Source: Helianthus annuus
Lineage: Eukaryota > Streptophyta > Magnoliopsida > Asterales > Asteraceae
Length of the DNA stretch: 64,000 bases
NCBI RefSeq assembly: GCF_002127325.2
Contig: NC_035437.2
Location: 110,314,821-110,378,820, forward strand
Direction of reading: 5' to 3'
Shown here: one piece after another, positions 1,782 to 54,546 of the stretch
Numbering within the stretch: position 1 is the first letter of the stretch
Layout: each line of letters opens with the position of its first letter
Program-made: the position numbers and the translations under genes
The notes under the pieces: generated by a model
Seen by the model: the letters and a program-made list of their open reading frames with translations, nothing else
Told to the model about the DNA's origin: nothing
The model's database searches: none

Positions 1782-4700
1782 ATGGATGATATTTTCTTGA
1801 ATCCGTTCAGCGACATGTATGCGTTCACGGGAAATTCCAGAAACGATGATATTTCATCAAGCAAAGAAAATGAGAATCCGCCAAAAGAAAAGAAAAAGGA
1901 AGCTTGGGAATCGGAAAGTGCCTTCGGAACATTCAATAAACCCCAAAGCTAATGGCTATCGAGGAGTACAGTCGGTGGTCTAGGAAGTTTGAAGATTGGC
2001 TGATGGCATTCGCATTTCTCAGCTGGAAAAGTTTGAAGAATGCTTATGCCAATGGAAACAAAAATGGTGAAACGTTAAGATCAGCTGAAGAGATTGATGC
2101 ATTTGTAGCTGAGCAAAAGTGTGTGGCTTTGTTATTTCAGTCTGTTTGGGAGGACATAATCTCTTTGATCGATTATTCAAATGCAAAAGATCTTTGGCAA
2201 AAGCTAGAAAAGAAATGTCTAGGAAGTGCTGAAATTGTGAAAAGTAAAAAGAAACTTCTTAGGAAAGAGTTTGATATGTTTGGTTGTCTCAAGAATGAGT
2301 CAGTTTGTAAAATGATAGAAAGGTTTGGTCATCTGAAGCTGGAATTAGCAAGACATGATATCAGATATTCTGATGAAGAACTTGTTGACAAACCGTTCGA
2401 TTCATTACCAGACGAGATAGATTGGAGATATTATGCGCTGATGCTGAAGAACACTATTGCTCCTGAAGAGTTGAATCCAGATTTGGTGATTGAAAGGCTT
2501 GAAAGTCATGAACTAGAACTGAAGAAGACGTACAAAGTCAATCACTCATTTTACCAGCAGAATTTGGATCTATATTATCCGAAAAGCAAGATGCCAAAAG
2601 CAACTTCTCCAAAGACTGCATTTTCTGCTGAGAATGTGTCGACAGCAAGCAAAGAAAGTCAAAGCAGTCAAAGCAGTGGAAGTCACAGTGGTTATCACGG
2701 TGGATCTTCATCATCCGCAAGTCATTCTGATGCAAAGTTTCAGTGCAACATCGCAATAGATTTGAAGAATGCACAGAATTTTGACGAGGAGTCGGCTAAG
2801 CAGCGGATGGTCTTCTTGGCGTCGGTGTTGGAATCATACGAAGGGTTAGTAGCTGAAAAGATCGGCAATACCAACCTGATTAAGGAAGATTATGATCAGA
2901 TAGATCCGGAAGAAAAGGAGCTGATCGATATTCGTTGGGCGATGGCCAGTGCAGTTCGTCGAGCACAGCGTTTCATGGAAATAACTGGCAGGAAGACAAT
3001 TGGTGATCCATCTACCAAGCTGGGGTTCGATAAGTCCAAAGTGACTTGCTTCAAGTGTAAGCAGAAGGGTCACTTCAAGCGAGAATGCAGGAACGCTTAT
3101 GCTGATGAGTCAGAGAACCCTTTCAGAGATGATTACTACAAGAAGGCGATTTATCATCAAAATAAATCTGAGCCGCCTAGATTGAAGCAGTCTGAAGATA
3201 ACAGAGAGAAATCTAGAGCTCTTGCGGTGATTTACAATGATGAGGGGTATGATTGGAGCAAAGAAGTTTTACCAGAAGAAGATGCGGTTGGTTACGCATT
3301 CATGGCGAAAAACGATGAACCTATTCCGTGGAAAGATGATCGTACTGAAGAGCAGAAGTATAACTATAGGAAAATGATTGCTGAAAACAGAATCATTAGA
3401 ATTTCTCGTATCTATCTGGATGCGAGGAGAGCGAGAAGATGGGATCCGGATAGGGAATGTTATCTTGATGAGTATGGAAATATTGCGATTGATGACAAAA
3501 CGCTTGATCTGGAAGCCATCATCAAGGAGTTGAAAGAAGAGGATGAGTATTGGCAAAATAAATGGTGGGGAACTCCAACCGAGAAAATGAAAGAAGAAGA
3601 AAGAGAGAAAGAAGAGAAAGAGAAAAAGGAGAAAGAAGAGATCGAGAAAGCAAAGAAGATTGATACTGGCATTATTGATACAACGCAGGAGTTGACTGCA
3701 GAGAACCTGGGAAAAATGGCTGACAAAGTGCCGGCTGCTAAAGCACTTGAGGTAGACTCTAACTCCGTGTCTGAGTCAAAAGGCCAGGTCAGTCCAAACT
3801 CGTCAACGAATGCGTCAGGTAAAAAGATCGAAGGAAATGTTGATTGCAAAAATTGCAACAAAGAGTGCAAATTTTGTAATACTGTCACGTATCTCAACGG
3901 TGAGAAAATTAAAGATCTGACAGCAAAGGTCAGAAGTGTTGAGAATCAGATTCTTGGTCGTGACAAAACAGTTAAAGCTTCAACTGAACGGATTAAAGAA
4001 TTAACTGCTCAAATTGAAACTGACAAAATTAAACATGAAAAAGTTAAACATGAAAATGAAAGGTTAATTCTTGAAAACCGTCAAACTTCTGAAAAGTTTG
4101 AAAAACTTAAAACCACAATGAAAGATAGTGATGATCGAAATGGTAAAACTTTTAAAGAAAACGAACATCTAAAAGCAGTGCTGAGAGTTAAAGAAGAATC
4201 AATCAACAAACAACTGGATGAAATCGCTAAATTGAAACTTAAATTTCAAGAGGCTGAAATTGAAAATGAGCGAATCCAGTTGAAGCTTAACAGCTACAGC
4301 TCCGCAAGCTTTGTGTTGCAGCACATTGTTCCCAAACCCATCGGGAAATACAAAGCTGGCGAAGACGTGTATTCTGATGGAACAGGGGTGGGTTTTCACA
4401 AAGTTCCACCGCTGATTCTTGATAACTACACGAAAAAGCAATCTGGGTTGGTTGAACTTGAGGAAGGAAGTGAAGTGAAACTTCCTGAGAACATTGATGT
4501 CACGTTCACATCTTCCAATGACGATAGTGTCCAAAATGATGTAGTAAAAAGTGTTGTCGAAAAAGTTCTAAAAACAGATAGTGACACTACTGAGGAAGAT
4601 GGGTGTTTCTTGGACAAATACATTCCGAAACAAAAGTCCAAGAACAACTTAAGTGAAGAATCAAATCTTGTCATGTACAAGATGTTGGGTTTGGATAAGT

Positions 4701-6100: not shown

Positions 6101-7660
6101 ATATTGCCGCAGTCAATCCGTAGTGAAACTCGTAGTGACTTGTCTTTCTCTCTCTCTTGAGTCTTCTTTAAGATTTAACATCTTCAGCAAATACAGACTC
6201 TCTCTTCCTCGAACAGAATCCCGGTGGATTCGTCTTTAGCTTCAGCTCCCCCTTTCGGTAGACTCTTCAGGCTCCCCCTTTCGTCAAGCTTCCGTGCTTT
6301 TGGGATCGACGCCTGGCTTTCCGTAGCAATAAAATCAGAAGCCTGCACATCTCAACCTCTCGATTACAAACCAATAAAGTTGTGATTCAAATTAATGAAT
6401 CATCTAAACATTTGAGGATTATTTACAATTAAAAATGATAAAAAATTTGAAACATTCCAAATTCTGATTAAACTTAATGAATCATCTTAAACATTTCAAA
6501 CCAATTAACCAAACCGTCTGTTCATCATGTTTAGCCTTTGAGATTTTGAATATCAGCTTTTCACCATCAGTTGTCGAAAATCTTTTTGGATTTTTCAAAA
6601 TAAGAAACATAAATGCAAAGACAGAAATTAAATGCAGAAATGAAATATATACAAACATATTTTTGTGAGTTTGTGCAAGAGGATCATATCAGTTTTTGAG
6701 ACATATCACCAACACCGTTAAGCTTTTAATCGTTTTAAGTTCTAAACGATTCACATAGATTGACGATATAACTGTCCTCTTAAGCTCAATCTAAAAACTT
6801 TCGAAATGCTTACTGATATGTTAAGGTATATTAATTTTGCACTAAGTTCTTATGGACCCCACGATCTCAACATATCCCCTCATCATGCAATACACTAACT
6901 CAAGTAATGCCTTTAAACTTTCATCAACTGTGATATGTGCGAAAATAAAGCAGAATGTTTAAACATTAACAATCAGGTCGATACTTCCGTATACGCAGAG
7001 AAAGTCCAATGTTTAAACAAAATAAGAAAATAAAACAAGTTGAAGTTGTTTAGGCTTTAACCACCAGGTCGATACTTCTGTATACGCAGAGGAGGTCCAA
7101 AGCTTAAACGAAACACCAAAGAAAATAAAGCAGAACGTTTTAGGCAACAACATCCAGGTCGATGCTCACGTATACGCAGAGGATGTCCGATGCTTAAACA
7201 AAATAAAGAAATCAAACAAGTTTAAATATTTGCAAAATGAAATGCACAATCACAGCGACTTTTCAGCAAAGTAGTGAAAGTTCACAAACTTAACCGGTTT
7301 TATGTCTTTCGACAATCAGCGATTACTGAGCAGGCACACAGTCAAGAAGGACAAAACTAAGTACTATGCTTTCAACCATGTTTCCCACTAGAACTAGGCT
7401 TTTACATTTAAGTTTGTATCGTTATCGCAAATCTACTAGTCTAGCTGAGCCTATCGTCACATCTTTAGTGAGACCGTTTATCACATTTGACAATTCATAT
7501 CTTTAGCATGCTGTGATAGTCCGCTGATTTACTATCATTTCCTCTTTTTCGCAATGAAAATCGTTTTTGATTTTTTTCGATGTTTTTGACATTTTCAAAT
7601 TTTCTATTTTTTTTTTAAATTTTTCTCCCCCTAAAATCAAAATATGTTTCAATTTTGATT
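6101..7660 (-). other. 3' non-coding region of element X with hairpin array
   Basis: No coding sequence. Read on the minus strand it parallels the 3' regions of A, B, C and E: an internal purine tract (7625-7632), the block AATGATAGTA...GCTAAAGAT near 7495-7545, and three copies of the motif CTCTGCGTATAC...GACCT at about 6974-7000, 7066-7092 and 7156-7182. In these the four-base loops are GGAA, AGAA and GTGA, closed by ATAC/GTAT-like stems. Two further CTCCCCCTTTCG tracts at about 6246-6290 resemble extra polypurine tracts. See the findings for the RNA interpretation. Confidence 0.7.
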
Positions 7661-8079: not shown

Positions 8080-9848
8080 TCATTTGAACAGTTTCACCCA
8101 AGCCTGACTGTCCTTGGGTGATTTTGAATTCTTGTTCAACAGTGGTGGAAAGTTTGCATCATCCATTGTTAAACCTGAATTCTCAGTTTTTACCTCCACA
8201 ACTGGCTCTTCTGGCTTTACCGTACCAGAATCATTGCCTGAGTGTGGCTTGTCTGACTTTGACGAGCCAGATTCATCGCCGACATGTGGCTCCTTTGTTT
8301 CCGAAGAAACGGATTCATTGCCACCAAATGTTACCTTCTTCTTGTCCTTTTTCGTCCTCAGATTTGTATCTGATGAATTCGTCTTGCTTGACTTTGCAGT
8401 CGAGGGAGTTGATTCATTAGAACTCTTATTCGATCTGTCCGGTGAACCCGAGGACAAAATCTTCTCAAGATATTCTCTGGCCTTCTTCCTCTTCTTTCGC
8501 AGTTTGTCTTTTTGCCCTTGTGAAAGCTTCACTTTCTTTTCTTGAACTTTAGGTTCTTGAACCTTCTGTTCTTTGGGCTTGACATTGACTGGTTTCTTTG
8601 CCAACTTCTGAGAATTAACCCTCAATCTTTCACTTGATTTCCTTGGGCAATCTCTGGCAATGTGACCTCTGATTTGACAGTTAAAACATCTTCTCGTCTC
8701 AAAATTCCTTCTCTGGCAGTTAACAACAATGTGTCCTTGATAACCGCATCGGTAACACACTCTGTTATCATACCAATCACCATTTTCAGTCCAAATGCTC
8801 AAATCAAAGCACTGTTTGGCTTGGTGATACTCTTTCCTCCTCTTGATTGCTGGATTTGACTTTAGAGCACTGTGGTCAAACCTGCACCACTTATTACCAA
8901 CAATTTTTGAATTATCATTTTTTACTTTTTGTAATTTTTTATTTTGATTGGATGATCGATCTGATGAGCTGTTATTTTCTTTTTGAACAATTTTCTCCTT
9001 TTAAATTTTTTGTTTCTGTTCCGCTTTCTTCTTCAAAGGTTTTTTCTTAGAGCATTCACCTTTTTCAGTTGATTGTAGAACAGTTTTCTGAAATGTTTCT
9101 TTTAATTTCAAAAACAATTTTTGTTTTTCAATTTTTTCATTTTCATCATCAGATTTCACATCAAAATCTTCAACTTTGACATTGTCAAAGTTTGCGACAT
9201 TGTCACTTATTGGAATTCCATTGATCGGTTCTGGACACACATACGGTGCAGAAGTCACAAAACCTTTCAACTTATTTTCTAAATCAGCAATTTTATTCCG
9301 ATCGCTTTCAGCTTCTTTTTCAAGCTGAATGATTTTAGCAAAATGAGAATTTATTGCAATTTGTTTTTCAAGATTATTTTTATCAAAAATATCTTTCTCA
9401 TCTTCTAAAATCTTTATTTGAATTTGAAATTCTTTTTCAATTTTTATTTTTTCAATTTCTGAATTTTTTATTTGAATTTTCAAAACATTTTCTGAATTTT
9501 TAAGATTTTCGTTTTCTAATGTCAAACTCTCTAAATCCCTCAAGAGTTTGGCGTTTTCAAATTTCAGATTTTCACAGTTTGAGCACTTCTCTGTCATCTT
9601 TTCAGCTTCAGCTTTCTTCTCCACCTTGATAGCTGAAATTTCTTTAACCTGCTCCTCTTCCACTTGAACATTTTTCTCAGGTTCGAATTTTTTATCAACA
9701 GACTTCATTTTTCTAATCTTTTGGAGTTCAAGTTCTTGATCTTCGATCTTCTCGATAAACAAGCTCAAATTCACGTCTTAATATATCTTCCTCAAATCTA
9801 ACAAATACGTTCTCCACCTATCACCCGGTAAAACAATTTTTCTCGATA
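8080..9848 (-). pseudogene. gag: Gag of element X, 5'-truncated at an inversion point
   Basis: Two minus-strand open segments (9001-9774 and 8080-8802) with broken sequence between them form most of a Copia-type gag. From N to C: the end of the UBN2-like domain (S-L-F-I-E-K-I-E-D-Q-E-L-E-L), a long Lys/Glu-rich coiled coil, two zinc knuckles in tandem (CYRC...GHIVVNC and CFNC...GHIARDC, about 8660-8765), a basic/acidic tail, D-A-N-F-P-P-L and a terminal W-V-K-L-F-K. It is closely similar to gag of element C in layout and wording. The first roughly 200 codons are missing: at about 9848 the sequence flips to a plus-strand gag tail. No pol follows; the 3' region begins directly after the gag stop. 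Confidence 0.82.
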
Positions 9849-10410: not shown

Positions 10411-10424
10411 ATTGGTATCAGAGC
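10411..10424 (+). other. Primer binding site of element B without a preceding LTR
   Basis: ATTGGTATCAGAGC, matching initiator tRNA-Met like the other Copia PBS copies here. The sequence before it is an X/C-type post-gag spacer and not an LTR, so B lacks its 5' LTR at this site. The preceding CCTACA equals the last six bases of the LTRs of C and E, which may have guided the join. Confidence 0.85.
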
Positions 10425-17651: not shown

Positions 17652-18420
17652 ACCTGTGTCGTGTTGTCATTTTTCTTTTGTACAGTTGTATTTCCTGCTT
17701 TTCGATAAAAACAAAAACACAAAAAATATGTTTTAGTTTTAGGGGGAGATATTCGCAGAAAAATACAAAAACATGATAAAATAAAAAATCCAAAAACATT
17801 GAAAAATTCAAAAAGAGTTGTGTAGAATAGGGGAAATGATAGTACATCAGCTAGACGGACACAGTACGCTAAAGATTTGTAATGTAAAAATGTAATTAAG
17901 TAGTCTTGCTAAAGATGTGCTGGTAGGTTTTTACAGAATTAGTAGATCAGTTTGGGATATAAACATAAATTTCACTTGCGTTTACGTGGGGAACACCTCC
18001 AGGATATATAGGTAACCCCTGAAATCCTGTTTGAATGGTCCCGTATTCTGAGATACTAGGTCTTTATGCTCGGTGATATCTGGGGTATTATCCCGGGACT
18101 TCTGCTGTATGGAAATACTGACCTAGTCCCCAGATAATACTTTCCGTAAAAAGCTTTGAAACATAAGCTTCACCCTCAGCAAGCTGATGAAACAATAAAA
18201 TTGATAGTCGCTGCTGTTGAAAATAAAAGATCCTCTAAAGGGGACCCACCTTAAAGTCGAACCGTCATCTCTCTGCTGAACGAAAGTTCTGACCTGAGCT
18301 CTCACAGTTTCGCGTCTACCCCTTTACAGATATCAGCTGTGGTATATTCACCTGTAAGACTGAATACTGGGATCCGGATACGGGAGTATATACTAAGGTG
18401 GGACACATGTAAATGTTTAA
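17652..18420 (+). other. 3' non-coding region of B with conserved structured block
   Basis: It contains an internal AGGGGGAG purine tract (17741-17748), the conserved AAATGATAGTACATCAGC...GCTAAAGATTTG segment (about 17833-17880), and a block at about 17948-18400 shared with A, C, E and X. Within the block is a hairpin at 18085-18140 whose outer arms start GTATTATC and end GATAATAC, and whose inner stem GTAT/ATAC is capped by GGAA. A second small hairpin (GAAC-GAAA-GTTC, 18278-18289) follows. No ORF is conserved here. Confidence 0.75.
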
Positions 18421-19902: not shown

Positions 19903-22900
19903 GCTTCGGCAAATGTTGTATTTGACCCTGTACACAACAGTTGTTGTGATTTGGATGTCGAGAAAAATCCCGAATTGACGAATTTCAGTAGTATTTTGGA
20001 TTTCATGGACCGTATCCCTATTAAGAAAGCGCTGACGGATCAACGGCCGATCTACAGATCTCATTTAAGTCGTTTCTAGAAAAATGCTACTTACGATGAG
20101 GAGAACAAAGTAATCTCTTCGGTGGTTGAAGTGCATGGGAAGTTAGAAACAATTCTAGTGACTGAAGCTTTAGTACGTGAAGTTGTCAATTTTCCCGATG
20201 AAGCTAATTATCCTACACGGTTTCCCGAGAGGATGGTGAAAGGGTGCATGCTGAGGTTGGGATACAGAGGAGCTTTAAATACCGGAAATTATTTGAAGTC
20301 GAAGTTTCAGAAGTCGTTCAAGTTTCTCATTCATTGTATTCTGATTTCTTTAAGTCACACGAAGGGAAGTTACGACCAAATGAGAGACTATCAGATGAAC
20401 ATGTTGACAGCTTTGGTATTGAACAAAAAGTATAATTTCTCTCACATAGTGTTTCATTACATGGCAGAGAATATAACAACCAAAGTTAGGGCGTGGAAAT
20501 ATCCTAGGTTTGTGCAAATGTTGATCGATCATGCATATCCGGAGATTGATAGGAACATTAAAGATGATTTATTGGTGCAAGCTCATATGTCGAACAACAC
20601 TTTGAAGCAGTTGGTGAAGTACCATCCAAATCATCCTGAACCATCACTTGTCATTGAAAATTTTGGCTATATCAAAGATGTAAAGTATGTTGATCCTGAT
20701 CCAGTGGATCATCTAAACTGGAGGAATCAGGAAGAGATGAAAGAGGCATTCTACGCTGATGAGCTGAAGATTCTTGAGAATTTCAAGACAAGAAAGAATG
20801 AATGGTACGTGAAAGAATCTGGAAGGAGACGCATATTGGTGACTCCTACAGCAGAACAAGGTGAAGGTTCTTCGTCTAAACCAAAGAAGAAGCAAAAGAA
20901 AAAGGCTCAAACTATGTTAGTTGATGAACCTGAAGATGATATTCCTGTTGATAATGCTGAAAAGGAACAAAATGTGACTGTTGGAGAAGATCTCTTGTTT
21001 GATATTAATATGCTTGAAACAGGTCCAGACTTTGTTGCAAATGTTGTACAGACTGTAACTGCTGAAGTTCAGAAAGAGAAAGAAAAGGTTATAGATGATA
21101 TTGAAGGTGACGATGTGGACAAAGATACAACTAGTTCATCAAGTTCATCAGATGACGAAGTTGTAGATGAGAATGAACGTCAGAGAAGGATGAAGGAGGA
21201 GATAGAAAAAGAGAAGTTGCTCAAGAAAAGGAAAAGATTAGAAAAGGATGATGATGCTCCTTATGTTCCTTCACCAGAGCATGTTTCTGAATCGCAATCA
21301 ACTCCAAGAGGTAGAAAGAAAGCTGCTGGTCGTAAGAGAGCAACGCCAAAGGTTAGAGTGTCAAAGAGACCTCAGAAGATTGTGCAAAAGAAGCAACCAG
21401 AAAAAGAAAGTCAAAAGCCACCTACACCTCCACATGAACCAACATCACCACAATCACCTATTCACCAATCTCCACCAAGACAACCTATCCCTCCACAACA
21501 ATCATCACCACCCAGACTTCCCACACCTCCAAGACAACCATCACCTACTCCTAAATCAACACCATCACAACAACCAACACTTTTCTCTACACAAGACTTA
21601 TTCGGTACACCTCCACTCACTCAATTGCAACCTGGTTCTTCTAGCAGAGGTCTTCAAACTCCGCAAGATAATTTGTTGGATATTGGTGACTTTGATTTTG
21701 CAAACAATGATCAAGTATTGAAGTTGGAAAAGAAAATGGAGAATGTGATAGCTGAAAACAAGAAGTTGGCAGCTGAGAATAAGAAGGTAGCTGATAGAGA
21801 AAAACTTCTTGCGGCTCGTGTGCAGAAGTTAGAAAGTGAAAATAAAGAGTTGGTGAAGAAAGTTGAAGCTGATCAAAAGAGATTGATATCTTAAAGGTTC
21901 GTGTGACTGAGCTTGAAGAAGAAAAGAATCGACGTGATGATCAGAATAAATACTTCAAGCTAAAAAACAAAGAGCTTGCAGCATCTAAGGCGTTAAAAGA
22001 TCATGAATTCTATATGCTGAACAGAGTGGTTGAAAGTATGCTTGGAACATCGGTCAATCAAAAGTTTGAAGAACTGAAAGTTGAAGACCTTCATGCTGAA
22101 CGTCAAGCTGAACTTGAAAGGCAGATGAAGGATAAGGGTAAAGGAGTTGAAGGAAGTTCATCTGTGCCTGAAATGGCTCTAGTACCTTCAATGGTTACAG
22201 AGAATCCTGAACCGATATCTGCAGTTTCTGGTTTGTTCAAAGAAGAAACTCCAATGCATGAGTTGATTGGTGATGAAGATGAGGAAGTTGATGAAGAGGA
22301 TGATGAAGAAGATGATGATGATGATGAAGTAGTGTTCTCTGCTAGCAGTCATAGTTCAAAAGGTGACGATGATGATGATGCTGCAGGTGGCACTGGTGTA
22401 AGGGTTACAGAAGCTTCTACCGAGAAAGTTGTTGAAGATTTGTTGAATGACACAGTTAATGAAGAATCTGGTGAAGCTACTGGAAAGGGGGAGTTAAGTA
22501 AGTCGCAGATAGTTGAACATTCTGAACAATTGTTCTTGCGCTTAGATGTCTATAGAGAAATGCTAAAAGATGTAAATCCTGAGATTCCATTTGACTTTGA
22601 AGAAGATTTGGAATCGTTTGATGTTAATAAACAGCCATATTACCCGTATAAGTATGTTGAAGAGGCTGATCTTTATGATAGAGTCGAAGTAGAGGATTGT
22701 TCGGATAATGAAGATGTCACTGAAGATACTTCTAAGTATCCATCTTTGATGGAATTCTTTGCTGAAGAGAACAGGGAGGAGTTGAGACAAAAAGTGACAG
22801 AGGCAGTAAATGAAAATGTCTTCGAGAATATGAAGAAAGACGTTGAAAAAGAAGATAGATCGAAGTGGTTTAAAGACAGTCACGAGAGAAAGTTCAAACG

Positions 22901-23753
22901 GCCTTTGAAGTATTTTCAGCGTGACAGAACTGTTTCTCTCGGTGATATTATCAGTTGGGGATTTCTGCCGCAAGTGAATGCGTACGCTATCCGTAGAGAG
23001 TATGGCGTCCAATATTTCGAACGTCTATATGACATTATGTCATTACCATGGTGGGACGTCGATGAATTGTCTAAAGTCAGGAGCTTGGATTATCCGGTGA
23101 GGAAGAATGATATGGCGATATGGGGTTATATAAAGTATGAATCACTGAAGTCATTTCGCAAGTGGAAGCCTCATCATCCTAAGCGTGTTCAAAGGATAGA
23201 TCCAGAGACTGGAGCTACTGAGACAATACTGAATGTAAAGCCACCAAGAACTATAAAGACAATTCCTATGCCTCAGATGGAGCAGGAATTCTACAAAGGC
23301 TTTATTAGTTGGGTGTACAGCTGCAGAACAACTGAAGCGATCATATCTTACAGAGCTGGTGGAGAAATTAGAGATATTCACGTCTACGATCCTATGTGGT
23401 TGGTTAACTGCTCGGTGAAAGATATTGAATGTCTATTCATCAACAAAATCCGTTATCAGCCAGCAGACAAAGAGCAAGCTCAACAATTTCAACGTGTAGT
23501 TTCACTGTGCTTTCAGAAAAGCATAAACTCTGAGAGCAAGTGGAAATCTTCATGGTGGTCGTTAGACGAAAAGATGAAGAGGAAAGCGAAGCGTGAGCGC
23601 GAACGTGAAAATCAGAGGATTGAAGAAAAGAGAGGAATGTTCATGAAACAACAAGCTGATGAAGAGAAAGCGAGGAAGAAGTTAAATGAAAGAATCAGAG
23701 TTGAGCTAAGTAAGAAACCAAAATCGCGAGAAGAATCGTACAAAGCTATTTGA
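19879..23753 (+). pseudogene. Third ORF of element B (env-like position, function unknown)
   Basis: The ORF lies between pol and the polypurine tract, where SIRE elements carry a so-called env-like gene. From ATG 19879 one frame runs to 21894, interrupted by a TAG at 20077-20079. A shift near 21885 leads to a second frame ending at 23753. Together these are about 1,290 codons. Layout: a folded-looking N-terminal part (about 20100-20780), Lys/Glu tracts, a Pro/Ser/Gln-rich stretch (about 21410-21600), a coiled coil (about 21715-22130), an acidic Asp/Glu run (about 22265-22390), and a C-terminal domain rich in Trp and Tyr (about 22850-23560) ending in a basic helix. I find no signal peptide and no hydrophobic membrane span, so I would not call it an envelope protein from this sequence. 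It resembles what I recall of uncharacterised proteins annotated in Asteraceae genomes. Confidence 0.75.
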
Positions 23754-23787: not shown

Positions 23788-23800
23788 CCAAGGGGGAGTT
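23788..23800 (+). other. Polypurine tract of element B
   Basis: CCAAGGGGGAGTT immediately before TGTTAGTGCATAATG, the start of B's U3. It would prime plus-strand synthesis. Confidence 0.85.
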
Positions 23801-24178: not shown

Positions 24179-27100
24179 GAAATATAAACGGTGGTTACGT
24201 AGGTTTTGCTGGTAATTAAGGAGGAAAGATTATAGGTGAAGGAACGTTATCCAACGGAATCGTAAAGTTTGAGAGAGTTAACTACATCGCTGAGCTTGAG
24301 AATAATCTGCGGAGTATCTCCCAGATCTGTGACAGGATGTATACTACTCACTTCACTGACATAGAATGTTTGATCTTGAAACCGGGATTTGTGATACCTG
24401 AGGAATGGATCATCATGAGGGCACCAAGAGTTAATGATCTGTACGTGTTAGACATGAACGTAGCTACTACAACCACGGGCCAGGCTCATTGTTTTGTGTC
24501 CAGAGCAACGGAAAAAGAATCAAGATTGTGGCACCGGAAAATGGGGCATATTCATCTTAGAAAAATGAATCACTTGGTACATAATGATTTGGTGACAGGA
24601 GTTCATGTCAAAGGTTTTCATCTGGAAGGGGAGTGCATAAGCTGTGTTAAAGGCAAGCAGAAGAAGAAGTCACACCCTACAAAGCAAGTCAATTCAGTTT
24701 CAAGACCTTTGGAAAGACATCACATGGATTTGTTTGGTCCTGTGAATGTCAAGAGTATTACAAGAGATTATTACTGTTTGGTCGTGACTGATGATTATTC
24801 CAGATTTTCGTGGGTTTCATTCTTGAAAACAAAAGACGAAACGTTTGACAGTTTAATGGCGTTGTTTAAAAGAATTGAGAATCTGTACCAGAGGCCTATC
24901 AGTAGAATTAGAAGTGATAATGGTACTGAATTCAAAAACAGTAAGATGGAAGAATTTTGTGATGAACGAGGTATACTGCATGAGTTTAGTGCTCCGTACA
25001 CTCCACAACAGAATGGAGTCGCAGAACGTAAAAATCGGACGCTAATCGAGACGGCTAGAACTATGCTTGCAGACTCTAAGTTACCGATTAATTTTTGGGC
25101 TGAAGCTGTTTCCGCCGTATGCTATACGCTCAACAGGGTTCTTACTGTCAAGAAGTTCAACAAGACATGTTTTGAGCTAATCAATAACCGCAAACCGAAT
25201 TTGAAGTATCTAGAACAGTTCGGGTCACCTTGTACAGTTATAGAGCCTAATGGAAAGTTTGGTTCGAAGTGCATTGAGGGTATATTTGTTGGTTATGCCA
25301 ATCCATTGCGATGTGTCTTCGTTCCAAGTGAGAAGCAGATTATTGAAGCTGCAAATGTTGAATCTCAAGGTTATACTATGCCGCCGCAGAATCCTGGTGA
25401 TTCATGGCGTTATCATTATGACAAACTTTGGAATTCGTTTGACATGAGAGAAGAATCAGAGGAAGATGAAGATTTCTTTGATGAGCTGGATATTTTGCAA
25501 GAGTATGAGTCGCAGCTCAGGTTCCCAGCAGAGTATTCTAGAAGACCTTGGGAAACTTCAAATGACGATGAAGCAGGTCCTAGTAATGCTGGTGAACATG
25601 ATGATGAAGTTGCTCCTGGTAATCAGTCGGCAGTGACTGATGATCAAGAAACTGATAACATGCAAGTATTTGATCATGGTGATTCAGATTCTGAGGGGGA
25701 GCAGATCCAGATATCAAGTCAAACAAACCAAGTTGGTGAACCAGATGCAGATCAGAATGTTACTAATCTGGAGGGAAATGTAGATGTTCCAAGCGAAGTG
25801 ATGCCGCGAACTCTTTCTTATCATCCAGAGGAGTTGATCATAGGAGAATTGCATTCAGGCGTTCGCACAAGACGTAAAATAGACTAGGGCTTAACATGTT
25901 TTTATTCTACAGTAGCACCTTTACAAACTGAATTTTCATTAAGTTGTTTTATCTCGCAGATTGAACCGAGAACTTACAAAGAGGCGCTTACTGAAGACTC
26001 TTGGGTCATAGCGATGCAAGAAGAGTTAAGTCAGTTTGAAAAGTTGGGAGTGTGGAAGTTAGTGGATTTACCGGATGGTCAAAGGAAAATCAATACAAAA
26101 TGGGTATTCAAGTGTAAGAAAGACGATACAGGAGTTGTTGTAAGGAACAAAGCTCGACTCGTTGTTCAGGGCTTTAGTCAACAGCAGGGGATTGATTTTA
26201 CAAAAGTCTATGCCACTGTGGCATGACTAGAGGCTATCAGAATTTTCCTAGCATTTGCGTCTTGGAAGAAGTTCAAAGTATATCAGTTAGATGTAAAGTC
26301 AGCGTTTCTTTATGGGAAGGTCAAAGAGGAGGTTTATGTCGGTCAGCCGCCGGGCTTTACTGACCCAATCCACAAAAACAAGGTCTACCTATTGGACAAA
26401 GCGCTGTATGGTTTACACCAGGCCCCGAGAGCCTGGTACGAGACTTTGTCTCAACACCCACTAGCCAACAAGTTCATACGTGGAAAAGTGGATGCCACTC
26501 TCTTCACTAAAGTCGTTGATGGTCATCTTCTGATAGTTCAGATTTACGTAGACGATATAATTTTTGGGTCAACTAATGAGAAATTGTGTAAAGATTTCGA
26601 ACAGGTGATGAAGCAAAAATTCGAAATGTCATCAATGGGGGAGATGAAATTCTTTCTGGGTCTACAAGTTGAACAACTACCTGAGGGAATTTTCATTCAC
26701 CAGACGAAGTACGTGCATGATATTCTAGAGAAATTTGGAATGTCAAGTTCTACTCCCGCTGCTACCCCACTTGCAACAAATCATGGGATTCACCCAGATC
26801 TCACCAGAGACAGGGCTGATGAAACGTTCTACCGTTCCATGATAGGTTCATTGATGTACCTAATTGCTTCACGTCCTGATATCATGTACCAAACGTGCCT
26901 CGCAGCAAGATTTCAGTCTAACCCGAGAGCTTCGCACATGATCATTGTCAAAAGGATATTACGCTACTTGAAAGGAACACCCACATTGGGGTTGTGGTAT
27001 CCTAGAAAAGGTGATTTTACGCTCGAAGGGTATTCCGATTCGGATTTCGGATGCTGCAAAGTCAATGCTAAATCAACAACTGCAGGATGCCAGTTCTTTG

Positions 27101-27588
27101 GTCCTAGATTGGTTACCTGGCAGTGTAAGAAACAAACGTCTGTGGCGTTGTCTACATGTGAAGCAGAGTATGTTTCTGCTAGCAGTTGCTGCTCTCAGAT
27201 CCTGTGGATACAGCAACAGATGCGCGACTACGGTTTGCAGTTTCTTAACACACCTATGTTTGTTGATAATGAGGCCGCAATAAACATAACAAAGAATCCA
27301 GTACATCACGCTAAAACTAAACATATAGAAATTCGTCATCACTTTATTCGCAATTGTTTCGAGAAAAAGTTGATACGAATTGAGAAAATCCACACTGACG
27401 AACAAAAAGGTGATTTGCATACCAAAGCTTTTGATAAAAATCGGTTTCAATATTTGTTAAAACTTAATGGTATGAAATTGCTTTCGGTGTCGGATGGGAT
27501 TGTGAGCGTTGATGAGAGTACTGTTGCGGATGAAGACGAGAAACAATCTGCAATGGTTTGTCAATTTTTTACAAGTTTTGGTATTTAG
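24179..27588 (+). pseudogene. pol: Pol of element A after the insertion (PR end, IN, RT, RH)
   Basis: The protease resumes right after the insertion; an in-frame TAA near 24217 is in this part. The integrase has W-H-R-K-M-G-H (about 24529), then the core with M-D-L-F-G-P, S-D-N-G-T-E-F and N-G-V-A-E-R-K. A TAG at 25885-25887 and a TGA at 26224-26226 break the frame before and within reverse transcriptase; relatives suggest these replaced Gln and Arg codons, that is C-to-T changes. Reverse transcriptase keeps Y-V-D-D (26545-26556). RNase H keeps S-D-S-D-F-G, S-T-C-E-A-E-Y and I-R-H-H-F-I-R. The final TAG at 27586-27588 overlaps an internal purine tract. Confidence 0.92.
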
Positions 27589-29191
27589 GGGGAGTAGTAG
27601 ATAGATGTATATAGTCTATTTTCAGAAAATACAAAAACAGTAAAAATGAAAAAATACAAAAACAATACAAAATCTGAAAAAGAGCTTGTGTATATAGGGA
27701 AAATGATAGTACATCGGCTAGACAATTACAGTATGCTAAAGATTTGGAAAGACAAAATGAGTTAAACAATCTTACTAATGATGTGTCGATAGGTTTTCAC
27801 ACATTTAGTAGATATATTCGGGATATAAACCTAAAATTTCAAACTTGCGAAATTCGTGGGGAACACTACTTGGATATATAGGTAACCCCTGAAATCTCGT
27901 TTGAAAGGTCTCGTATTCTGATATACTAGGTTTTTATACTCAATGATGTCTGGGGTATTATTCCAGGACTTCTGCTGAACGGAAGTTCTGACCTAGTCCT
28001 TGGATAATACTTTCACCAAATGCTTGAAACACAGCATAAACCCTCAGCATGCAGATGAAACAATAAAATTGATAGTCGCTGCTGTTGTAACAAAAAGATC
28101 CTCTAAAGGGGACATACTGAAAAGTCGAAGCTGATATCTCTCTGCGCATACGGAAGTATCGACCTGAGATCCCTCGGCCCTCGCATACCTAATTTATGTA
28201 CAGATATCATTGTAGTATACTCACCTGTAAGACTAAATATTGAGATTCTGGATACGGGAGTATATCCAAGAGGTGGGACACATGAATTAAGCTAAGTTCA
28301 TAAGTCATCTAAATTGTATCCTGAATAGTTTGAAATCTGTGTGAGAATTTAAGATGGATCAGTATATCGACAATCGAGGTGAATTGTTTAAGTCTGAGCA
28401 TGTAATAAAGCTTAATGGTACTAGTAATTTGTCTAAAAAGCTGATATGATTCCCTGACACGCTCGCCAAAAATAAGTTTGTATATAGTTCAATTTCTTTA
28501 TTTTCCGCAATTTAAGTTTTCTGCATTTTATTTCTTAGTTTAGAACACTTTATAAAATCCAAAAAGATTTTATTTCTGCTTTATTTTTGACAAACCAAAG
28601 TGGGGAGTTGATTGTTGGATTCTCAGAAGATTGAAGCAGATGCAGGAGATTCTGGACCGAAAAATGAGGAGAGCTTACTTTGTTGGAGTTTGAAGATATT
28701 TTCAAAGTTAAAACAAGTTCATTAAGTTGATGCTTGTTACATTGTTTTTAGAAAATGTGAAAATATTTTTACAAAATCAGTTTGATTCGTCAAATGATCA
28801 ACCAAGGTCATTAAATTGAACTTGGTAGATTAATTGAGTAATCAAGGTCATTAATTTGGACCTGAATACTTGAGTGGATTTCTAAAGCTGATTGAGTTTG
28901 TGATTTAAAAAAAAATAGAATTTTAATGTTATTGGTTGAGTAACAGGTTTGGACTTCATTATTCCTAACGGAAGCTAAATGTCAAAGCTTGAACCAGATT
29001 AAGACCTCAAATTCCAGCATACTGAGAGGGGGAGTCTGTGAAAGGGGGAGTCTGGATCAACATTCAAAGGGAAGATGGAAGTTAGAGCCAGGATGTGATT
29101 CTGGAGCCTGTGAAGAATGCTTATGATGTGAAGACAGAGTTGGAGAAAAGACCAAGACTGAAGGCTTAGGAGCTGAAGACTACGTCAACAT
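27589..29191 (+). other. 3' non-coding region of element A with conserved structured block
   Basis: 1.6 kb without coding potential and without the third ORF seen in B. It has AGGGGGAG at 27587-27594, the GATAGTACATCGGC...GCTAAAGATTTGG segment near 27705-27750, and the conserved block at about 27793-28290. Its two GGAA-capped hairpins have loops at 27981-27984 (stem GAAC/GTTC) and 28152-28155 (stem ATAC/GTAT). Two more AGGGGGAGTCTG tracts near 29030 and 29046 precede the true polypurine tract. Confidence 0.75.
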
Positions 29192-29204
29192 CCAAGGGGG
29201 AGTC
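29192..29204 (+). other. Polypurine tract of element A
   Basis: CCAAGGGGGAGTC immediately upstream of the 3' LTR. Confidence 0.9.
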
Positions 29205-29701
29205 TGTTAATGCATGGAATGTCTGTCGACTACATCTGCATTACGTCTTAGGTCAAGATAGGTCAACATAGGGTCTTGAAAGTCAAAATCATGTATTATG
29301 TAGTAGATCCGCTTTTGTGAACATGTGTTGTAATAGGTCCGCTTATAGGGTCTTAGATAGGTCCGCTTATATGGTCTTCATATGGTCCGCTTATTTGTCA
29401 TATTATAGGTTCGCTTATAGGGATAATTTGATAGGTTCGCTTATATGGCACGTCGTATAAGCGGAACCATGCAGACTATAAATATTCAGTTCAAGCGAAC
29501 CTGATTAGTTAGTGGTGTATGTTGAAGCGGATCTGTTGAGAGCTTTTGTTACCGAAACTCTGTCAAATCAATATCAGAAAGCAATAAAAGGAAAGGAATT
29601 GAATAGGAAAGCTGTTGTAACTTCATTTACGTTGATTCCGCCTTCGTACATGAAGATGAACGTTCTCTACTGACTATTCAGGGTCGGAACACGGTCCAAC
29701 A
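29205..29701 (+). repeat. 3' LTR of element A
   Basis: 497 bp, the same length as the 5' LTR and differing at about a dozen sites, many of them C/T. It is followed by the target duplication GCTGC at 29702-29706. Confidence 0.95.
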
Positions 29702-44824: not shown

Positions 44825-47017
44825 ATGGATATCAATTTCTTTAATATGACTCAAGAAACATTTGATAGAATAAAAATATTAAAGAAAGAATTTGATTCAT
44901 TTTCAGGTTATCCAGGAGAAAACACTAAGGATATCATTGGGAGATATAGACTTCTTGTTCGTTCAATGTCTAAAATTGGTATAACTAAAGAACCAGCATA
45001 ATGGGTTGAAAAATTTGTCAGTGCTTTACCGAAAGAAGAATGGGAAGATTACATCTTGAACTTGAAGAGTTCTGGAGAATTTTCTCAACTGACAATTTGT
45101 CCACTCGTTGAAAGAATTGAAGAACAGATGAGGATTAATGATGAAAAGAAGAAAAAACAAAATGGTGATCAAAGGGCAAAGGAAGAAAAAGCTTCAAAAG
45201 TTGGAGAATCTGTGAAAAATGCATCAGTGTGTTTCAAATGTGACAACTTTAAGACTAATAATGACAAACTCGTAAAAGTTGCAGAGAGTTTGGCATTGGA
45301 GATCAAGAAGTTGAAAGACGAGAAACAGAATGATGAGAAGCAGATTCTTATATTAAAGGAAACGTGTGAGAAGATGAAAATTGAAAAATCAAAAATTGAA
45401 AAAGATTTTCAAAATCAAATGAAAATTCTTGAAGATGGGAGAGATGTGTTTAGAAAAACAATATTGAAAAACAAAAATGATAAATTCCCATCTTCAGAAA
45501 ATTATAAAATTGGAAAAAGAAGGTGAATGTGCTAGAAAGAAAGTTGAAAAGTTGGAAAAAGAGCTTGAAAGCAAAAAGAAATCTTCAGAAGATGAGGATT
45601 TCTGGATTAAACTAGAAAACAAGAATTTGAAAGCAAATAAATCAAAATTCCAAGAACAGATAAAAACTTTGGAAAATGAAAAGTCTGTTCTTGAAAACAT
45701 GAAGAATGAAAATGAAAAATCAACCAAGTCTCATCTTATAAGAATATCTCAGCTTGAAAATGAAGCTGAGAATTCAAGAAACAAGATTGATGAACTTGAG
45801 AAGAAATTGAAAGGTTTTGTGACTTCCTCAAACAGTTTGAATTTTCCCTGTCCAAAACCAATCAATTCAGTTCCAATAAGTGACAATGTCACAAACTTTG
45901 ACAATGTCAAAGTTGAAGATTGTGATGAGAAATCTGATGATGAAAATGAAAAAATTGAAAAACAAAAATTGTTTTTAGAATTAAAAGAAAAATTCAAAAA
46001 TACTGTTTTGCAATCTACTGAAATAGGTGAATGCTCAAAGCAGAAACCTGTTAAGAAGAGTGTAGAACAAAAACAAAAGGGTAAAACTGAGAAAATTGTA
46101 CAAAAAGAGAATAAAAGCTCATCAGATCGATCATCCAATCGCATTCAAAAAGCACAAAAATTGAAAAATGAAAACTCAAAAATTGTTGGTAATAAGTGGT
46201 GCAGGTCGGACCACAGTGCTCAAAAGCCAAATCCAGCAAATAGGAGAAAGGAATATCACCAAGCTAAACAATGCTTTGATCTGAACATTTGGACTGAAAA
46301 TGGTGATTGGTACGATAACAGAGTGTGTTACAGATGCGGCTATCAAGGACACATTGCTGTTAACTGCCAGAATTGGAGCTATGAGACCAGGAGATGCTTT
46401 AACTGCAACATCAAAGGTCATATTGTCAGAGATTGCCCAAGGAGATCAAATGAAAGATCGAGGGTTGTATCTCAGATAGTGGCAAGAATTCCAGTCAAGG
46501 TCAAGCCCAAAGAACTGAAAGTTCAAGAACCAAAAGTTCAAGAACAGAAAGTTTAAGAGACGAAAATGAGGCTTTCTCAAGGGCAAAAAGACAGGCTGAG
46601 GAAGAAGAGGAAGAAAGCTTGAGAGTATTTGGAGAAGATCTTGTCCTCGGATTCATCCATTGGAAAGAATAAGAGTTCTGATGAGTCAACTTCCTCGGCT
46701 GCAAAGTTAACAAGATGAATTCATTAGATACAAATCTGAGGACAAAAGAAGAAAAGAAGACGGTAACATTTAGCGACGATGAATCTGACAGGTCAAAGTC
46801 AGACAAGCCACCTTTTGGCGATGAATCTGACGTGTCAAAGTCAGACAAGCCATGTGCAGGCAATGATTCTGGTTCGTCAAAGCCAGAGGAGCCATTGGTT
46901 GAGGTAAAAAAGGAGAATTCAGGTTTAACAATGGATGATGCAAACTTTCCACCATTGTTGAACAAGAATTCGAAATCACCCAAGGACCATCAGGCTTGGG
47001 TGAATCTGTTTAAATAG
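44825..47017 (+). pseudogene. gag: Gag of element C, broken and N-terminally shortened
   Basis: ATG 44825 opens a gag whose N-terminal UBN2-like domain is shortened: it starts near the F-x-R-I-K-I-L-K-K-E-F-D-S-F part. A TAA at about 44999-45001, a shift near 45520, a TAA near 46554 and further breaks near 46620-46720 interrupt it. A very long Lys/Glu coiled coil (45130-45800) is followed by a C-P-K-P-I-N-S-V-P-I-S-D-N-V segment, tandem knuckles CYRC...GHIAVNC and CFNC...GHIVRDC (about 46327-46437), acidic repeats with S-K-S-D-K-P, the motif D-A-N-F-P-P-L and the end Q-A-W-V-N-L-F-K at 47017. It matches X gag throughout. No pol follows. Confidence 0.87.
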
Positions 47018-47780: not shown

Positions 47781-48660
47781 TTTTAGGGGGAGTAGAAAAT
47801 TTCAGAAAATCCAAAAACATTAGAAAATTTGAAAAAGCCAAAAACATGATAAAAACCAAAAATGAGTTTGTTGTGAAAAAGAGGAAATGATAGTACATCA
47901 GCAGACTATCACAACATGCTAAAGATTTGGAAAGTTTAAAAGTGTTAAACAATCTTACTGTGGATGTGTCAGTAGATTTTTACACATTTAATAAACTATG
48001 ACGAGATATAAACCTAAATTTCAAACTTGCTTGTTCTGTGGGTTAACACAAACTTAGATATATAGGTAACCCCTGAAATCTTGTTTGAAAGATCCCTTAT
48101 TCTGAGATACTAGGTCTTTATGCTCAGTGATATCTGGGGTATTATCCCGGGACTTCTGCTGTATGGAAATACTGACCTAGTCCCCGGATAATACTTTCTG
48201 CAAATGCTTGAAAAAGCGCCGCCCTCAGCAAATCGATGAAACAATAAAATTGATAGTCATTGCTGTTGTAAAAAAGATCCTCTAAAGGGGACCCACCAAA
48301 AGTCGAGTCGTCATCTCTCTGCTGAACGGAAGTTCTGACCTGAGCTCTCACGGTTTCGCAATTAACCCCTTACAGATATCATCTGTGGTATACTCACCTG
48401 TAAGACTGAATATTGGGATCTGGATACGGGAGTATATTCAAGTAGTGGGACACACGGATAAGTTTAAGTTCTTAAAACATTAATATCGTATCTCGGATCA
48501 GTTGAACTTTGTGTGAAAATTTCAGTGGACCGATATACTGACAATCTAGGTAAATTGTTTAGAACTTAAAATGAAATCAAGCTTAACGGTGTTAGTAACA
48601 TGTCTCATAAACTGATATGATCCTCTTACATGATCTCACAAAAATAGTGTATGTAAATAT
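47781..48660 (+). other. Conserved structured 3' block of element C
   Basis: Internal AGGGGGAG at 47785-47792, the AAATGATAGTACATCAGC...GCTAAAGATTTGG segment (47886-47935), then the hairpin block. The first hairpin spans about 48139-48194, with outer arms GTATTATCCCGGGACT and AGTCCCCGGATAATAC and inner stem GTAT/ATAC capped by GGAA (48165-48168). The second is GAAC-GGAA-GTTC (48324-48335). A third pairs CTTACAG with CTGTAAG (about 48367-48404). There is no conserved ORF. Confidence 0.78.
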
Positions 48661-49408: not shown

Positions 49409-49421
49409 TTGAGGGGGAGTC
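49409..49421 (+). other. Polypurine tract of element C
   Basis: TTGAGGGGGAGTC directly before the 3' LTR. Confidence 0.85.
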
Positions 49422-49845
49422 TGTTGGTGCAGTCATCTGTCGTCTTCGTCTTATGTCGAGTCTCGGGTTCGTTGGAGATCAGATTAGGCATGAAATATGA
49501 AAATATTGAAGGCTGGCCGTTTGAAGACAAACTTCCGTTTGAATTGTTGCTGGTCGTTTGAAGTCTCACCGTTTGAAAGGTGACCGTTTGAAGGATGGCA
49601 TGTCATCTTCAAACGGTCAGGTGTCTCCTATAAATACATGTCAAACGGTTTCAGTTGTAAAGGTTCTGATTTTCGACGGTGAAGCCCTGTCAAAGTGTAT
49701 TTGTACTGTAAAAGTGTCAAAGATCAATAAAAGAGACAATTAAAAGTGAATACAAGCTGAACGAAGACCGAATCAATGAATTCCGCCTCTGATTTGGTCT
49801 AAGTGCTCTTCTGATCGACTCATTAGGTCGATTCACGATCCTACA
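49422..49845 (+). repeat. 3' LTR of element C
   Basis: 424 bp, about five differences from the 5' LTR, followed by GTTTT at 49846-49850. Confidence 0.95.
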
Positions 49846-52806: not shown

Positions 52807-54175
52807 GTAACGTATAAAGAATTAAATAGTTTTACTGATGATGTGTTGATAGATTTTCACACATTTAGTAGATTTATTCGGGATATAAACCTAAAATTTC
52901 AAACTTGTGAAATTCGTGGGGAACACTACTTGGATATATAGGTAACCCCTGAAATCTTGTTTGAAAGGTCTCGTATTCTTCCGGGACTTCTGCTGAATGG
53001 AAGTTCTGACCTAGTCCTTGGATAATACTTTGCCTCAAATGCTTGAAACATAACATAAGCCCTCAGCTGATTAGACAATAAAATTGATAATCATTGCTGT
53101 TGTAGCTAAAAGATCCTCTAAAGGGGACATACCGAAAAGTCGAAACTGATATTTCTCTGCGCATACGGAAGTATCGACCTGAGATCCCTCAGTTCTCGCA
53201 TTACCTAATTTATGTACAGACATCATTATAGTATAATCACATGTATGTCTTAATTCTGAGATTCTAGATACAGGAGTATATTCAAGAGGTGGGACACATG
53301 AATGAGCTAAGTTCATAAGACATCTAAATCGTATCCTGAATAGATTGAAAATTGTGTGAGAATTTAGAAATAGTCTACGTGAATTGTTTAATTCTGAGTA
53401 TGAATTAAAGCTTAACGGTACTGGTAATTTGTCAAAAACTGATATGATCCTCTGTCGCATACTCAAACAAAAATATTATCTATAAATATGTGTGTACATA
53501 TTTCTTTACTGCTTTATATTTTCAGAAATACAAAAAGATTTTATTTTCTATTTTATTTTCGACAACCGATATCTGAGATGCTGAGTTTCCAAAGTCTGAG
53601 AAAGCTGATTGTGTTTCTGAAAATAAAACAAGTTCATTAACTTGATACTTGAATTAAATTCAAAAATTTCAAAAATAGTTTGTGACATCTTCAAGGTCAT
53701 TAATTTGAACTTGGAAGATTAACTGTGAGGGAGTTGGATTCTTTAACGCTGCCATATCTGTAAAGTTTGTTGATAGGGGGAGTGGATTAGGGAATTTGAT
53801 TGATGGTTTTAAAATGTTGTTTTTTATATAGAGTTTGAGTGATTGCAGGATAGGATACCAGACTGCGATCCCGAATGCAAAGTCTAAGGTGGAGTCTGAA
53901 GACAAGCTGGAAGTTAGAAAGAGCTTGTAGCTGGAAAGCTAGGTGTCGATCCCTAATAGCACGGAAGCTTGACGAAAGGGGGAGCCTGCTGATGATGAAG
54001 CTGTTGATGATAGAGCCAGTGATGAGATCCTGGTGAAAAAATCAAAGTGTGAAGTTGATCAAAGAGAAAGATTGTAGGATACTTACATTGTTACAATCTG
54101 ATTGAGATGGCAAAATGATCAAGACCGAAGAGGTGGCATAACAGAGAATGGTCACTGAAGACTTCGTCAATATCC
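52807..54175 (+). other. 3' non-coding region of element E, right part
   Basis: It resumes E after D. The conserved block runs about 52850-53300, with GAAT-GGAA-GTTC (52994-53005) and ATAC-GGAA-GTAT (53163-53174). About 40 bp of the first outer stem's 5' arm is deleted here (near 52978). Extra purine tracts TAGGGGGAGTGG (about 53774) and AAGGGGGAGCC (about 53977) follow. No ORF. Confidence 0.72.
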
Positions 54176-54186
54176 GAGGGGGAGTC
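54176..54186 (+). other. Polypurine tract of element E
   Basis: GAGGGGGAGTC immediately before the 3' LTR. Confidence 0.85.
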
Positions 54187-54546
54187 TGTTAGTGCATTAC
54201 GTCTATTGACTTCGTCTTGTATCATGTAATAGAATAGGATAGGATAGGATATTTAGTGCACGAGGTTCGAGAAACGAAAGTTGGTGGTTTAGCAAATAGT
54301 TCCGCTCTTATGGACAGTCCATATAAGCGAAACTATCCAACTATAAATAGGTGCATGTTTAGTTCATTTGGGAACTTCTGGAACTTGTAACGAAGTGCTG
54401 CCAATTTGCTTTCAGGTTGTAAATATTGTTAAAATCAATCAAAGAAGCATTATAATTAGTTTGAGTGTCTGATTCATTGTTTCCGCCTTTGAATTGGATA
54501 AACAACTCTTCTGATTGACTCATTCGGGTTCAACAACGATCCTACA
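54187..54546 (+). repeat. 3' LTR of element E
   Basis: 360 bp; three differences from the 5' LTR, followed by CAACA at 54547-54551. Confidence 0.95.

Follow-up and report, generated by a model that had tools for sequence, protein, structure and literature searches.

The locus examined here raises the question of why a block of non-coding DNA should remain recognisable in retrotransposons whose LTRs have drifted apart, and what in that block is being kept. The window analysed is a 64,000-nt stretch of Helianthus annuus DNA (C5:110314821-110378820, within a genome of 3.01 Gb and 334 contigs) that contains nested copia and gypsy elements. Five of these elements, A, B, C and E on the plus strand and X on the minus strand, bear hairpins in the block. 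An initial annotation of the window had described two recurrent hairpins there and had interpreted the block as a functional RNA structure.

The block and its shared hairpin apex

The hairpin-bearing domain is placed between pol, or gag in the pol-less elements, and the 3' LTR. Pol is present in A and B, and a tblastn search within the window with the A integrase and the B reverse transcriptase found no pol at C, E or X. Element A has rve (24220-25884) followed by RVT_2 (26227-27585), which is the copia gene order of integrase before reverse transcriptase. The sequence TGGTATCAGAGC, which we take to be a primer-binding-like motif, occurs after the 5' LTRs at 1089, 32382 and 44281 and also at 10413 in B. 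Comparisons of LTRs cover A, C and E, the elements with delimited 3' LTRs. As the initial annotation had claimed, the block has been conserved while the LTRs diverged: it is 73-89% alike among A, B, C and E, whereas the aligned LTRs of A, C and E are just 47-56% identical (172/347 for A-E, 197/418 for A-C and 201/356 for C-E). The same annotation's view that no open reading frame is shared was also correct, each frame of the block in A, B, C and E holding 4 to 25 stops, and the hidden reading frame that it had named as the alternative was not seen in these frames. Many indels in the block are not multiples of three and the mismatches are without a three-base period. A coding explanation was rejected on the stops, the indels and the mismatch pattern.

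The elements resemble Sireviruses in this same part. In the available portion of a survey of that group, the 3' LTR is preceded at a fixed, short distance by a polypurine tract, of which the linker contains several copies (Bousios et al. 2010, PMC2829016). In A, C and E the corresponding tract, AGGGGGAG, ends the linker and stands exactly 10 bp upstream of the 3' LTR (Table 1), and further copies lie at 27587, 29027 and 29043 in A, at 47628, 47785 and 49222 in C, and at 37605, 53775 and 53977 in E. The attachment dinucleotides of A, C and E are TC/TG, with TC at 29203, 49420 and 54185, whereas AT before the LTR is reported for 20 Sireviruses in the part of the survey at hand (PMC2829016). That part covers polypurine tracts, a tract/LTR inverted repeat and CGG-CCG palindromes, and does not describe a hairpin domain.

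A location of the domain inside an LTR was considered when one genomic locus, L008, showed an X linker joined to B sequence at a polypurine tract. Two findings led to its rejection: A, C and E each have LTR pairs of their own 3' of the block, and an upstream pol is present both in B itself (locus L001) and in five of the six other B-like loci (L002-L007).

Two further features were observed downstream of the B domain. Exactly 10 bp past a polypurine tract at 23791 comes a spacerless inverted repeat with 189-bp arms (23801-23989/23990-24178, 98% complementary), as though an LTR start had been copied and inverted. Two long overlapping open reading frames of 604 and 626 aa lie between the B domain and this tract, at 20080-23753 (+); they gave no Pfam match at 1e-3 and could be an env-like or other linker gene.

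A regular expression of the form TCTGC...GACCT matched 11 hairpins with one apex in the window, two each in B, A, C and E and three in tandem, about 90 nt apart, in X. Each consists of UCUGC, a short stem, a four-base loop, the other stem side and GACCU. More exactly, a UCUG/ACCU internal loop adjoins a C-G pair, a 4-bp stem and a tetraloop that is mostly GGAA and also GAAA or GUGA. Judged against the strands of gag and pol, the apex lies on the sense strand of its element in all 11 copies. The positions, arms, inner stems and GGAA loops that the initial annotation had given for hairpin 1 (H1) of B, A and C all match, hairpin 2 (H2) was located in B, A, C and E with GAAA as the loop in B, and the internal-loop sides that it had called common, UCUGC and GACCU, are identical in 11 of 11 copies. 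Its assignment of the loops to the GNRA class held for 10 of the 11 and failed for the second X hairpin (X2), whose loop is AGAA. Its claim of one block in five elements stood for A, B, C and E, which carry H1 and H2, and needed amendment for X, where the same apex sits on three tandem hairpins. These three hairpins, like the helix P0 that encloses H1 and H2 (Table 1), were absent from that annotation.

A structure-aware scan of the window returned eight zero-mismatch matches, all on the plus strand, and none in six Markov-simulated windows. The three minus-strand copies of X come from the plain regular expression and fail the strict stem rule of the scan; the first of them (X1) has an A-C mismatch in its inner stem. 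Folded alone, H2 of B and H2 of C are not minimum-energy structures; H2 rests there on covariation.

Table 1. Positions in the window of the hairpins, closing helix, domains and polypurine tracts, with the evidence for each.
Feature	Positions	Strand	Evidence
Whole domain of B (P0, H1, middle hairpins, H2)	18074..18335	+	RNAalifold; P0 closes minimum-energy fold, H2 absent there
P0 5' side of B, TGATATCTG	18074..18082	+	RNAalifold, flank-duplex test
Hairpin H1 of B, apex 18101-18124	18085..18140	+	Regular expression, folding z -4.91, H1 alignment
Hairpin H2 of B, apex 18272-18295	18260..18309	+	Regular expression, H2 alignment; alone, not minimum-energy fold
P0 3' side of B, CAGATATCA	18327..18335	+	Three compensatory pairs vs family Y
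Domain of A: H1 27955-28010, H2 28129-28179	27944..28209	+	Alignment, minimum-energy fold, RNAalifold
Domain of pol-less C: H1 48139-48194, H2 48306-48355	48128..48381	+	Alignment, RNAalifold; H2 absent from minimum-energy folds
Damaged domain of pol-less E: H1 52973-53028, H2 53144-53194	52973..53194	+	Alignment
Domain of X: three tandem hairpins, possible closing helix 7259-7244/6940-6923	6923..7259	-	Regular expression, alignment, folding
X hairpin 1, apex at 7180	7148..7188	-	Regular expression, alignment; alone, not minimum-energy fold
X hairpin 2, apex at 7090, loop AGAA	7058..7098	-	Regular expression, alignment, folding
X hairpin 3, apex at 6999	6967..7007	-	Regular expression, alignment, folding z -4.34
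Polypurine tract AGGGGGAG in B, upstream of domain	17741..17748	+	
Element A terminal polypurine tract, then 3' LTR from 29205	29195..29701	+	Tract/LTR mapping
Element C terminal polypurine tract, then 3' LTR from 49422	49412..49845	+	Tract/LTR mapping
Element E terminal polypurine tract, then 3' LTR from 54187	54177..54546	+	Tract/LTR mapping

The initial annotation had recognised no known RNA family, and no Rfam match above the gathering threshold was found. Rfam 15 gave no match in the window; at E up to 5 it gave none in 17948-18400 and three in 6900-7300, all far below gathering, the best being bxd_5 on the opposite strand (19.9 bits vs a gathering score of 50). Chance recurrence of the apex was rejected. 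The apex word TCTGC N6 GGAA N5 GACCT occurs in at least 120 IMG/VR loci, and the best of the 80 scored with model R1 reached 15.7 bits against 48.6-57 bits for the window copies, a gap that is partly built in because R1 was trained on those copies. Two more specific apex patterns had no match in viral contigs, the 101 matches in prokaryotes are about the chance expectation for 257 Gb (~120), and no relatives of the B pol were confirmed in viral contigs.

A closing helix and compensatory changes

H1 and H2 sit in one branched domain of ~260 nt that is closed by P0, a 9-bp long-range helix pairing TGATATCTG with CAGATATCA. RNAalifold recovered H1, H2, the middle hairpins (a TCCTC/GGGGA and an ACAAT/ATTG stem) and P0 unprompted, from an alignment of eight sequences (A6) and then from one of eleven (A7). 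P0 closes the minimum-energy folds of B, A, C, X, the X copy in L008 and family Y, the last discovered through genome sampling; H2 of B, H2 of C and the first X hairpin of the window do not form in those folds. When the flank-duplex energy of P0 was compared with 1000 shuffles, 1, 0 and 1 shuffles were as good for B, A and C, respectively. The energy was weakly significant for Y (33/1000, with the 3' flank placed by hand), and 119 and 243 shuffles of 1000 were as good for X and for X in L008, so that a P0 of X is possible and energy alone does not establish it. In E, a 42-nt deletion has taken out the 5' side of P0 and changed one arm of H1.

Within the eleven sequences of A7, P0 varies only by G-U for A-U, besides two unpaired cells in L264, and in L006 and L008 its 3' side is CAAATATCA, one changed base giving one mismatch in nine. 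An independent test of the helix came from family Y. Its P0, TATCATCTG/CAGATGATA, differs from that of B by three compensatory pairs, and its H1 arms, GTATCATGG/CCATGATAC vs GTATTATCC/GGATAATAC, add three further compensatory changes. A search anchored on the words TCTGG and CAGA found a P0 helix of at least seven pairs in 10 of 12 further loci, which had been picked for variety from the listed places. It found none in L258 or L260; the P0 5' side TGATATCTG is present in L260, without a CAGA word in the stretch retrieved. In sequence comparison and folding models, P0 closes a branched sense-strand domain in which one to three hairpins present the same apex.

The initial annotation had expected stem covariation to emerge from a wider alignment, and it did so on the whole domain. 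In A7, 97.6% of 660 cells are paired against 36-41% with slid partners, a comparison that favours A7 in that its structure was derived from the same alignment. Its rows were taken from loci where P0 was found, so the pairing rate of P0 is partly selected. Both-side changes occur in 12 pairs, against 0-2 in slid versions and a shuffle mean of 6.0, and none of 500 shuffles, which ignore relatedness, was as high; the number of pair types was reached by 17 of the 500. A7 leaves out E (deleted), Y and L268 (middle not alignable), L258 and L260 (no P0 found), L265 (a near copy of L264) and L002-L008. Since the sequences come from one genome and few deep lineages, independent events are fewer than the counts of compensatory cells imply.

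The hairpins were also evaluated singly. Orthologous H2 (nine sequences; alignment A4, in which Y is absent and from which L003 and L006 were left out) has 97.6% of cells paired, slid controls reaching 18-39%. Both-side changes were found in five pairs (10/500 shuffles as high) and eight cells (0/500), and the pair types were reached by 46/500. H1 (alignment A5, without Y, whose H1 apex is absent) is 97.5% paired over 11 rows with three both-side pairs, and 19/500 shuffles reach its pairing rate and score. Taken alone H1 is weak, since it comprises four distinct sequences and 99/500 shuffles reach three pairs. An alignment of all 11 window apices forms 91.7% of 121 pair cells, against 23-37% when slid and 66.9% when shuffled. 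Both-side changes occur in 9 of its 11 pairs (a number also reached by 81/500 shuffles) and its pair-type number was matched by 364/500, while the both-side-change cells (38 vs 15.2) and the covariation score lie above every shuffle. Since hairpins of the H1, H2 and X kinds are pooled in it, this alignment says more about the recurrence of one apex on different stems than about history.

Copies and families in the sunflower genome

Exact apex patterns occur 38,695 times in the genome against 26 times for the reversed patterns. The pattern with a 5-base 5' spacer accounts for 28,784 occurrences (reversed control 11) and that with a 6-base spacer for 9,911 (control 15), a few places among the listed matches of the latter not being hairpins (e.g. 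TCTGCATGAT...). The inner stem is fully paired in 99 of 100 listed apices among the 28,784, which are family members and not independent events. The stems are GTAC/GTAC, GAAC/GTTC, GTAT/GTAC, GAAT/GTTC, GAAT/ATTC and GTAT/ATAC, with one GTAC/GTAT and one broken. The second inner pair of these 100 is always formed, as T-A in 66 and as A-T in 34, and the fourth is T-G in 25. A T-G pair can form in sense RNA as U-G and not in the antisense as A-C, which indicates that the folding molecule is RNA of the sense strand. The loops of the same apices are GGAA in 89 and GAAA in 11, the genome patterns themselves having required a GNRA loop.

A first look gave 1720 candidate copies of B/C type, 1392 of X type and 282 of Y type, with 40 of each scored. 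A 200-kb sample of the genome (12 x 10 kb near the window and 8 x 10 kb elsewhere) gave one further copy, L146, at E up to 5. The same apex is borne by quite different outer stems in H1, H2, X1-3, Y and L258. Family Y has lost the H1 apex and kept a single copy, and family L258 has two hairpins, 81 nt apart, on still other stems. The apex is not invariant everywhere: the loop is GGTA in H1 of 3 of the 12 further loci, and H1 of L259 has UCUGA/GGCCU in place of the usual sides.

In L008 a linker of X type runs into one of B type, so that five hairpins (3 + 2) stand in a row. The junction was seen at 1800-1880 (minus strand), inside the polypurine stretch AAGGGGGAAATGATAG. Its position points to polypurine tracts as sites where linkers are exchanged as cassettes by recombination, and such exchange may be how Sireviruses came to have multiple tracts.

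Family Y offered observations of its own. In L146, at 8200-8400 (minus strand), four short AATAAGTGA.../...TCACA hairpins are visible by eye around H2, and their stems also change in step (GTGAT/ATCAC, GTGAG/CTCAC). The 40 listed Y-type copies are all 99-100% identical, and 17 of the 40 lie within the last 13 Mb of C13 (about 160-172 Mb), which suggests recent, regionally clustered insertion.

Candidate partners of the apex

Pairing and covariation support the initial interpretation, and the domain is very likely a conserved functional RNA structure. Its helices change by compensation while the unpaired letters are fixed in the copies seen, with rare exceptions, and this suggests that the loops are read by something. 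The conserved apex is probably a docking site for a trans-acting partner, and its repetition would provide multivalent binding. Pol-less elements retain the domain, still placed between tract copies and the 3' LTR, which points to a role in cis for the RNA. In the best explanation, which we put at roughly 40%, the linker that follows pol or gag and precedes the 3' LTR in Sirevirus-like copia elements contains an RNA domain acting in cis, with the apex as the dock for Gag loading. The partner would most likely be Gag or its zinc-knuckle part, and the domain would mark element RNA for virus-like particles; packaging is a tentative candidate for its main role. Gag loading is favoured because a pol-less element cannot do without it, and pol-less elements may have kept the domain because loading needs machinery that they partly borrow. 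A second reason is the steadiness of the knuckle region within Gag: in A, B and E it is nearly the same (CFKCKxxGHFKxEC, with similar upstream residues). Beyond the single gag knuckle, a second knuckle was observed downstream of gag in A (5107) and E (36646). Against packaging, the familiar signals of retroviruses are situated close to the 5' end, and multi-hairpin signals of this kind present several hairpins with similar recognition loops, mostly in that same place. The sunflower domain likewise has several hairpins with similar loops but lies in the 3' part.

All five elements, X, C, A, B and E, share the apex despite their divergent gags. Local matches of the B gag elsewhere in the window are 35-42% identical, and C and X encode a different double knuckle (CYRC.../CFNC..., at 45468-46553 and 8083-9000). 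A packaging signal might drift with its Gag and the apex does not, so a host partner is possible. A CTE-like export or stability element (CTE, constitutive transport element) read by the host is a rather improbable but serious reading, which keeps its standing because the apex has outlasted both this Gag divergence and the change to a second knuckle type in C and X; such persistence would suit a slowly changing host partner. CTEs lie near the 3' end, and the site of the domain before the 3' LTR and its two or more loop copies are similar. The CTE of Mason-Pfizer monkey virus, as described in the accessible part of the source, recruits NXF1-NXT1 directly and consists of a long stem-loop bearing two internal loops (PMC7551171). 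The likeness to it is a structured RNA with repeated internal loops; the difference is that the viral loops share one long stem-loop, whereas RNAalifold places those of the sunflower domain in separate tetraloop hairpins of a branched structure. The literature search returned no CTE-like element in plants by title or abstract start. A related and doubtful proposal is a portable hairpin tag that recruits one conserved plant factor, for export or RNP assembly, across divergent Gags and in autonomous and pol-less elements alike. The candidate tag is carried at one to three copies per domain, with some 38,700 exact copies in the genome.

An RNA-RNA contact is unlikely. Copies would in that case bind one another, GNRA loop into UCUGC/GACCU loop, and so fold the domain or dimerise genomes. 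The tetraloop and internal loop do lie at a nearly fixed distance, a spacing required by both genome patterns, and domains carry one to three copies, with five in L008. However, the classical 11-nt GNRA receptor is UAUGG/CCUAAG, and the internal loop here, UCUGC/GACCU, is a different one. The loop departs from GNRA in the X2 hairpin and from GGAA to GGTA in three further loci, and Y has a single copy. GGAA loops with receptors of their own are used in RNA engineering, but the part of the source at hand contains no receptor of the UCUGC/GACCU sequence (PMC5745442).

A 3' translation or RNA-stability element of the element mRNA is more doubtful again. On a gag or gag-pol transcript the domain does belong to the 3' untranslated portion, and the Arabidopsis copia element Evade protects its RNA through a 3' UTR structure, the ENE, according to the accessible text (PMC12501189). 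The likeness is thus a structured RNA in the 3' part of the transcript. The ENE, however, has U-rich loops that pair with poly(A), neither of which is evident here, the loop sides being UCUG/ACCU. Retrozymes, in the available part of their description, are likewise structured RNA modules of plant LTR elements that are conserved while the rest diverges (PMC4918200), but their module lies in the LTR and the sunflower domain is internal; no Rfam match to a hammerhead core was found in the window or in two domain stretches.

Hairpins or palindromes acting at the DNA level, in recombination, integration or transcription, are very improbable: palindromes are known from Sirevirus LTRs and from before env, as far as the accessible text goes (PMC2829016), and the L008 junction has linkers recombining at a polypurine tract, but the wobbles described above pair on the sense strand, the tetraloops are conserved and the apex keeps to that strand in every window copy. 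Shared ancestry or recombination alone, without selection on structure, was already disfavoured and is just as improbable, for although the best-scoring listed copies are 98-100% alike and the block may have moved between elements (A and E are 89% alike in the block and about 50% in the LTR), no shuffle of 500, relatedness being ignored, reached the compensatory counts, and the same apex sits on unrelated stems.

In the text available, a 2025 survey of plant structured RNAs is without the words retrotransposon, transposable, GNRA, Helianthus, Asteraceae or copia (PMC12218528). Nothing in the open-licence literature searched describes, by title or abstract start, such a hairpin domain in Sireviruses, LTR retrotransposons or sunflower. 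To our knowledge, how a plant LTR retrotransposon chooses its own RNA for export or packaging is poorly known. The domain, a candidate new RNA family, looks like an apparently undescribed handle by which some protein or RNA would recognise the element transcript. Fixed unpaired letters on variable stems, in tens of thousands of natural copies, make the apex a ready pull-down bait and a defined mutation target. It could likewise help to connect autonomous elements to their pol-less relatives. If the host-read tag were true, the domain would be a CTE-like element of plant retrotransposons.
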